From Nitrospiraceae bacterium (GTDB taxonomy: Bacteria; Nitrospirota; Thermodesulfovibrionia; UBA6902), in assembly GCA_003599425.1 (NCBI GenBank), contig QZKC01000079.1:1-49033 (forward strand): a stretch of 49,033 nucleotides of DNA, in the 5' to 3' direction. The notes under the pieces were generated by a model that did not search any database, was not told the origin of the DNA, and worked only from the letters and a program-made list of their open reading frames with translations. The position numbers were made by a program, and so were the translations under genes. This document shows, one piece after another, positions 10,378 through 11,170 of the stretch. How positions within the stretch are numbered: the first letter of the stretch is position 1; each line of letters starts with the position of its first letter.

Positions 10378-10408
10378 AAAGGAGTGATGTAGGATATTTT
10401 TCACTTCA

Positions 10409-10600
10409 TCAGTTCTTGACTTTTTCACTACGCTTCTTCTTCCTGAATTTCAGACATTGTACACCGGATGATGCGTAAACAACAGCGGAAGGCATCTCCC
10501 TGGATTTAAATCCCATGGCCTTGCATCCGCGAGGAAACTTCTCATCCCAGGTTATATAGAAATGTTCACAGGTGAAGCAGTTGATGGGCACTTCTTTCAT
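10409..10600 (-). CDS. Small cysteine-containing protein, conserved-looking, function unknown
   Basis: 63 aa: begins MKEVPINCFTCEHFYITWDE and contains FPRGCKAMGFKSREMP and VQCLKF, i.e. four cysteines in a CxxC...C...C pattern, and a lysine/arginine-rich tail. I recall similar short proteins in deltaproteobacteria and Nitrospirota, sometimes carried in databases under unlikely enzyme names; no function is claimed. The Cys spacing suggests a metal or FeS site or a redox pair. It is divergently oriented to the selenoprotein gene with about 104 bp between start codons, and a minus-strand TATAAT-like hexamer lies just upstream. Confidence 0.75.
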   Translation of the reverse strand: MKEVPINCFTCEHFYITWDEKFPRGCKAMGFKSREMPSAVVYASSGVQCLKFRKKKRSEKVKN

Positions 10601-10624
10601 GTGTCGTTATTATACGGTTTTTTG

Positions 10625-10653
10625 TTGTCCTCGTACTATGATAAGGGTATAAT
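10625..10653 (+). promoter_or_regulatory. Probable sigma-70 promoter of the selenoprotein gene
   Basis: TTGTCC (10625-10630), a 17-base spacer and a perfect TATAAT (10648-10653), about 50 bases before the start codon. The region between the divergent genes is AT-rich. Confidence 0.6.
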
Positions 10654-10704
10654 AAAAATATTCATTGGTATTGAATCGTATTAATTTATATCCCGGGAGG
10701 TGCT

Positions 10705-10920
10705 ATGGCAGACAGGATCATCATCTTTGGAAAGGCGGGCTGACCCTTTACCGAAAAGGCCAGGTCGGCTTATGGGTGGGGAGCAGAGTATTACGATGTC
10801 AAGGCAGACAAAAAGCGGATGGAGGAAATGCTTAAATATTCAGGCGGGGTGAGGAAGGTTCCTGTTATTGTTGAAGATGGTAAGGCTACCATAGGGTATG
10901 GCGGTTCCTGAGGGGTGTGA
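10705..10920 (+). CDS. Glutaredoxin-like selenoprotein with two in-frame UGA codons
   Basis: ATG at 10705 follows a strong ribosome site GGGAGG (10695-10700). The frame reads MADRIIIFGKAG-UGA-PFTEKAR: UGA at codon 13 (10741-10743) sits where thioredoxin/glutaredoxin folds carry the first Cys of CxxC, giving a UxxT motif after a beta-strand. The rest (AEYYDVKADKKRMEEML, GGVRKVPVIVEDGKATIGYGG) is normal glutaredoxin-like sequence with the cis-proline KVPVIV. A second UGA is codon 69 (10909-10911) and is followed by Gly-Val and a final UGA at 10918-10920, so readthrough at both gives 71 aa ending GGS-U-GV. Each of the first two UGAs is followed by a small hairpin with GU in the loop. I recall an NCBI family called 'Uxx-star (seleno)protein' that this fits, but could not check. 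The alternative, a pseudogene, is disfavoured by the otherwise clean frame. Selenocysteine machinery genes are not in the window. Confidence 0.82.
10756..10771 (+). promoter_or_regulatory. SECIS-like hairpin after the first UGA
   Basis: AAG(G)CC and GGCTT flank the loop AGGTC (10762-10766). The loop GGU begins 19 bases after the UGA. In Escherichia coli fdhF the SelB-recognised loop AGGUCU has its GGU 18 bases after the UGA, so both the loop and the spacing agree. The stem is short (five pairs with one bulged G). Confidence 0.7.
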
Positions 10921-10923
10921 TTG

Positions 10924-10938
10924 CCGGCAGTTAGCCGG
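10924..10938 (+). promoter_or_regulatory. SECIS-like hairpin after the second UGA
   Basis: CCGGC (10924-10928), loop AGTTA (10929-10933), GCCGG (10934-10938), a perfect 5-bp stem extendable by G-U pairs. The loop GU begins 18 bases after the second UGA. The hairpin lies just past the final stop codon, so it has no coding reason to exist. It could also be a weak terminator, but no T run follows. Confidence 0.6.
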
Positions 10939-10980
10939 TGGAATTAACGATTTAATTGGTTAAGATTTTTTGTTATGCCT

Positions 10981-11136
10981 GACAGGGAAGTCCGCTTCAG
11001 AATTTCTATAATCGACAAGATATTTAATTTTGATTAATTGCAGTCTTCACCTTTTTCAATTCTTAACTCTTGACTCCAAACTCTTAACTCTTTTTCAAAT
11101 GTGTCGTATAGAAATTCTTCACCGGTCTTTCCTGTC
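10981..11136 (+). repeat. Family B palindromic element, copy B2
   Basis: 156 bp. Outer arms GACAGGGAAGTCCG (10981-10994) and CCGGTCTTTCCTGTC (11122-11136) pair; their sequence is unrelated to the outer arms of B1 and B3. Inner conserved ends are AATTTCTATAATCGACA (11001-11017) and TGTCGTATAGAAATTCTTC (11102-11120). The interior holds word repeats of the type TTCTTAACTCTTGACTCC. It lies between the selenoprotein and comF. Confidence 0.8.
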
Positions 11137-11170
11137 CGCGGTGCAGTAATTGAAATAAGCTTCACTATGG

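Follow-up and report, generated by a model that had tools for sequence, protein, structure and literature searches.

The question raised by this locus is how a short frame that carries UGA at codons 13 and 69, and again at codon 72, is decoded. The gene lies in a window of 49,033 nucleotides, which is the whole stretch of Nitrospiraceae DNA analysed here. In bacteria each selenocysteine (Sec) codon requires its own SECIS just downstream, a hairpin shortly past the UGA with a G in the apical loop. A preliminary description had proposed that the first two UGAs encode Sec, that each is followed by such a hairpin, and that the third ends a frame of 71 codons. Translation reproduced this frame, and with UGA read as Sec the product is MADRIIIFGKAGUPFTEK...IGYGGSUGV. 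The two internal UGAs are 168 nt apart, and UGA69 lies 9 nt ahead of the stop codon. Both hairpins were found at the described places, with loop AGGUC at 10762–10766 (GGU 19 nt past UGA13) and loop AGUUA at 10929–10933 (GU 18 nt past UGA69), and both fit the bacterial SECIS description. The second hairpin indeed lies 3′ of the final stop, and the earlier end coordinate of 10938 has to be corrected because it cuts through this hairpin. An Rfam scan of the window gave no match at the gathering score, and Rfam may lack a bacterial SECIS model. Our conclusion, with a probability of about 0.93, is that the gene belongs to UXX-star family 1 and that its UGA13 and UGA69 are read as Sec and its UGA72 ends translation. 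The features are collected in Table 1.

Table 1. Positions in the window of the gene, its UGA codons and the two hairpins.
Feature	Position	Strand	Basis
Shine-Dalgarno-like GGGAGGTG, directly upstream of ATG	10695–10702	+	read off the sequence
Gene for a 71-residue selenoprotein of UXX-star family 1 (NF041114)	10705–10920	+	translation and profile match
UGA codon 13, predicted Sec in U-P-F-T	10741–10743	+	TGA in 57 of 60 class members
SECIS 1, weaker outer pairs	10751–10753 with 10773–10775	+	
SECIS 1, core hairpin, 5 bp, loop AGGUC	10757–10771	+	hairpin rule, alignment, wobble pairs
UGA codon 69, predicted Sec in S-U-G-V-stop	10909–10911	+	TGA in 60 of 60 class members and 21 of 21 further phylum loci
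True stop UGA, codon 72	10918–10920	+	stop there in 59 of 60; without a SECIS-like hairpin behind
SECIS 2, hairpin, 8 bp, loop AGUUA, 3′ of the stop codon	10921–10941	+	hairpin rule, covariation

The protein matched NCBIfam NF041114 (UXX-star selenoprotein family 1) with 108.9 bits against a cut-off of 72. The match spans profile positions 1–70 of 70, so that the model covers the tail up to its last position. NF041212 (Uxx-star), a broader model, gave 74.8 bits against a cut-off of 66 when UGA was given as a residue, and in a six-frame search of the genome the window copy scored 59.1, below that cut-off. The NCBI family named in the preliminary description exists, under both accessions. The glutaredoxin-like character also held, with 34.1 bits to Pfam PF00462 against a gathering score of 22.9. 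The UxxT active-site motif is present as U13-P-F-T and the second predicted Sec stands in a U-x-x-stop tail, S-U-G-V-stop, to which the name UXX-star probably refers. The nearest named relatives, at 79–83% identity, come from MAGs of Nitrospirae and Thermodesulfovibrionia.

The family is already in print. The pertinent entry of a 2026 review (PMC13188914) gives the NF041114 family the name "Distant Grx-like protein 1 (UXX-star selenoprotein family 1)", a UxxT motif and two Sec, and credits it to the 2008 GOS paper; the name is absent from the examined passages of that paper. "Distant Grx-like protein 1" is also entered with the UxxT motif in the corresponding part of a 2022 review (PMC9312934), and for UXX-star family 2 and the fusion family PMC13188914 cites Haft and Tolstoy 2025. 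The claim of novelty for a second Sec with paired SECIS signals therefore does not stand: the NF041114 profile includes the tail, the second Sec is published by virtue of the two Sec given in the PMC13188914 entry, and in bacteria a second Sec codon brings a second SECIS element with it. The full-length profile match, UxxT motif, two Sec and Grx-like character are those of the NF041114 family, and we saw no essential difference from it. The gene is genuine and of a kind already known, with nothing out of the ordinary for its catalogued family. What is added here to the catalogue entry are conservation counts, the covariation of both hairpins, the stop-codon evidence and the invariance of the C-terminal Sec.

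We searched the source genome (G000) for the selenocysteine machinery and found all four genes; an absence that would speak against Sec insertion is not observed. It holds selC, a tRNA-Sec with UCA anticodon (contig C85), selB (match at E 2.3e-104), selA (C20) and selD (C40), the last itself with one UGA. Across the class, selB is so common (207 of 230 genomes) that its co-occurrence with UXX-star family 1 is no test. It was missing at E 1e-60 in four of the 58 family-positive class genomes (G012, G027, G033 and G158). The single-contig genome G022, from which L020 comes, holds selA, selB and selD and a UXX-star gene that keeps UGA69; no tRNA-Sec scored over the Rfam cut-off there, the best match being a tRNA-Leu according to ARAGORN. 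These missing selB and tRNA-Sec genes may be assembly or detection gaps. G150 (C15:23008-23099) and G228 (C20:25398-25489) each contain a long tRNA that resembles tRNA-Sec and carries a Cys (GCA) anticodon; in G150 a second selB match (C15:21101-22957) lies some 50 bases downstream of it. The tRNAs and this selB match resemble the selC* tRNA-Cys and selB* of PMC7609411, which in its relevant passages describes selC* tRNA-Cys from Nitrospirae among others and selB* in two deltaproteobacterial orders.

For the comparison of homologues, matches to NF041114 over the cut-off were collected from 58 of 230 class genomes (59 matches) and from 61 of 395 phylum genomes. The class set comprises 60 distinct members, namely the 59 over-cut-off matches, including that of the window, and a weaker copy of 64.7 bits (L080). 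The 72 candidate loci included 8 identical copies and 4 that were excluded; of the others, a pattern read 46 and a looser one the remaining 14. The excluded loci are L089, with frame changes ahead of the tail, L091 and L092, which are weak matches and were left unread, and L090, with an odd start at a contig edge and a tail that still reads U-A-V-stop. One further candidate relative, L018, was a chance match. The source genome also contains a second UXX-star family 1 copy (G000:C7:3507-3688) with a frame change mid-gene, which stands outside the counts.

As proposed, Sec13 replaces the active-site Cys. At codon 13, 57 of the 60 class members have TGA, two have Cys (L013 and L020) and one has TAA (L047); among the 21 matches outside the class, U13 occurs in 20 and Cys13 in one (L123), which brings Cys to 3 of 81. 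Codon 69 is TGA in all 60 class members, never TAA or TAG, and UGA in 81 of 81 loci overall. The model that collected these members is named for selenoproteins, for which reason Cys69 forms may sit in sister families. The stop at the third codon past UGA69 is kept in 59 of 60 class members (TAA in 25, TGA in 20, TAG in 14) and in 21 of 21 loci outside the class; in the remaining member, L074, it comes one codon later. At codons 70 and 71, positions 1 and 2 are nearly fixed (54 to 60 of 60 members) and position 3 is spread over four bases. This spread largely confined to third positions, together with the stop at codon 72, indicates translation through UGA69 and termination at 72. Homologues that end at codon 68, with neither tail nor second hairpin conserved, are not what the family displays.

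The copy with TAA at codon 13 (G228:C63:5125-5325) has both hairpins and follows a tRNA-Sec gene (anticodon UCA) at a distance of about 0.7 kb. No tRNA-Sec that would read UAA was found in G228, and the other UXX-star copy of this genome, L080, has two TGA. The TAA may be a mutation, an assembly error or an odd recoding.

The hairpin after UGA69 is exceptional by itself. Of the 2178 other TGA triplets that the window holds on its two strands, only 1 has an equal or better hairpin with its loop 16–20 nt past the TGA. In a plain MAFFT alignment of 59 distinct rows, double changes occurred in 8 of 8 pairs, with 68 double-change cells against 33.4 in shuffles and a covariation score of 0.355 against 0.203, both values being reached in 0 of 500 shuffles. 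The true register also exceeded every slid version. In the same alignment 40 of the 59 rows leave the outermost pair unpaired and 27 the pair inside it, and RNAalifold gave no consensus structure, which is putatively due to loops of unequal length that the aligner left ungapped. By a per-sequence rule, which is biased towards pairing, at least five contiguous pairs form in 58 of 60 members (L074 has four and L075 two), with 27 distinct five-pair stems. The loop starts 17–20 nt past UGA69 in 52 of 60 members and 21–27 nt past it in 8, and the first loop G lies at 16–20 nt in 51, at 21–27 nt in 8 and was unfound in one. Under the strict hairpin rule 4 of 60 lack a hairpin at this site, and the loop comes later there.

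By itself, the hairpin after UGA13 is only mildly unusual. It was equalled by 24 of the 2178 other TGA triplets, and in synonymous recoding of the 17 codons past UGA13 it was matched or bettered by 836 of 20,000 versions; its case therefore rests on the comparison of homologues. The alignment contained 26 double-change cells against 9.5 in shuffles. Double changes affected 3 pairs and 12 pair types occurred, neither value being above the shuffles, which reached them in 422 and 178 of 500 cases, respectively. RNAalifold returned four weak pairs at -0.5 kcal/mol, and the strict rule found no hairpin at this site in 15 of 60 members. Given this mixed result, we compared third codon positions of codons 4–24 in 59 sequences, which form 190 wobble pairs. 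The two wobble pairs predicted by the stem, 21–27 and 18–30, ranked first and second of 190, both by double changes and by fraction paired (97 and 90%, respectively). Relatedness alone is an unlikely cause of this ranking, since one tree is common to all wobble pairs. Thus, SECIS-like hairpins are present at both sites as described, the second supported by covariation and the first by top-ranked wobble pairs. In one of the two Cys13 members of the class, L013, pair 21–27 is broken and hairpin 2 keeps 8 pairs; the other, L020, keeps pair 21–27, which is otherwise broken only in L075, a member with UGA13. Pair 19–29 fails in 12 of 58 rows, which are the members with Asp at codon 22.

We considered whether UGA69 might be the real stop, with a transcription terminator behind it and an untranslated tail. 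Hairpin 2 is GC-rich and lies outside the reading frame, as a terminator would. This reading is nevertheless very improbable, as an untranslated tail does not agree with variation of codons 70 and 71 mostly at third positions, with one of the three stop codons at codon 72 in 59 of 60 members, or with a codon 69 that is invariably UGA among the three stop codons. Nor does hairpin 2 look like a terminator: the 8 nt past the stem average 27% T, with at least five T in only 3 of 60 members, and the first loop G keeps its 16–20 nt spacing from UGA69 in 51 of 60. A terminator scan of 10380–11160 returned a single site, elsewhere and on the opposite strand.

The opposite possibility, that UGA72 is likewise read as Sec and the protein is longer, draws on the eight sense codons that follow it in frame. 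It is hardly credible given TAA or TAG at the same position in 39 of 60 members, and the hairpin rule found no suitable SECIS-like hairpin past UGA72 in the window. Equally slight is the chance that UGA is a sense codon genome-wide or that the gene is decaying. The frame-broken second copy in the same genome would fit decay; against both stand seven ORFs of 323 to 1080 codons without UGA in the window, the presence of selA, selB, selC and selD, and the conservation of frame and tail across the phylum.

With UGA13 and UGA69 read as Sec, SelB carrying Sec-tRNA(Sec) would bind the hairpin past UGA13 and then that past UGA69, so that each UGA would be decoded as Sec, and UGA72 would terminate for want of a hairpin at the right distance. 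The predicted product is a minimal glutaredoxin-like protein with U13-P-F-T and a C-terminal S-U-G-V, which may carry out selenol redox chemistry or bind a metal(loid), the C-terminal selenol partnering that of the active site. Metal or other substrate binding is considered possible for UXX-star proteins in the passage of PMC13188914 that concerns them. We favour a protein of glutaredoxin fold that would act in redox chemistry or bind a metal(loid), with the C-terminal Sec probably its most conserved reactive group. More speculatively, and with considerable doubt on our part, the C-terminal rather than the active-site Sec could be the indispensable one, and the two selenols could pair (as a diselenide or selenenylsulfide) or form a metal(loid) site that replaces glutathione, giving a glutathione-independent glutaredoxin.

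Compared with glutaredoxin (PF00462) and Grx3 (PDB 1fov, 3grx), homology extends over most of the chain (PDB profile search, E 0.0007–0.002), and the strand-helix order appears alike in a low-confidence AlphaFold model. With a mean pLDDT of 49.7 for the window protein and five relatives, the model can support neither a fold search nor an estimate of how far apart residues 13 and 69 lie. In contrast to these glutaredoxins, the protein has Sec for the first active-site Cys and Thr for the second, which by sequence is absent from this candidate glutaredoxin, a length of 71 residues and a Sec tail.

Among 35 neighbour stretches, most with flanks of 1.5 kb and with the window counted twice (as itself and as L026), the commonest cluster, a gene that is comF-like by inspection, occurred in 10, followed by a large radical-SAM-like gene with 9; no partner gene common to the family was seen. 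In viral contigs, 26 stretches fit a pattern and none was a relative, and plasmids gave no match. Two promoter-like sites were found against 1.7 expected. The family lends itself to a clean test of Sec insertion in a natural bacterial setting, with two Sec codons, a second SECIS outside the coding sequence and, 9 nt past the second Sec codon, a stop that is itself UGA in 20 of 60 members. The 27 distinct five-pair stems at near-fixed codon distance are a ready dataset for the tolerance of SelB. The source genome also encodes two Grx-like genes with one in-frame UGA in a UxxC motif (G000:C67:6722-6910 and G000:C2:61471-61665); no C-terminal Sec tail was seen in them, and they share with the window gene the Grx-like character and the active-site UGA.
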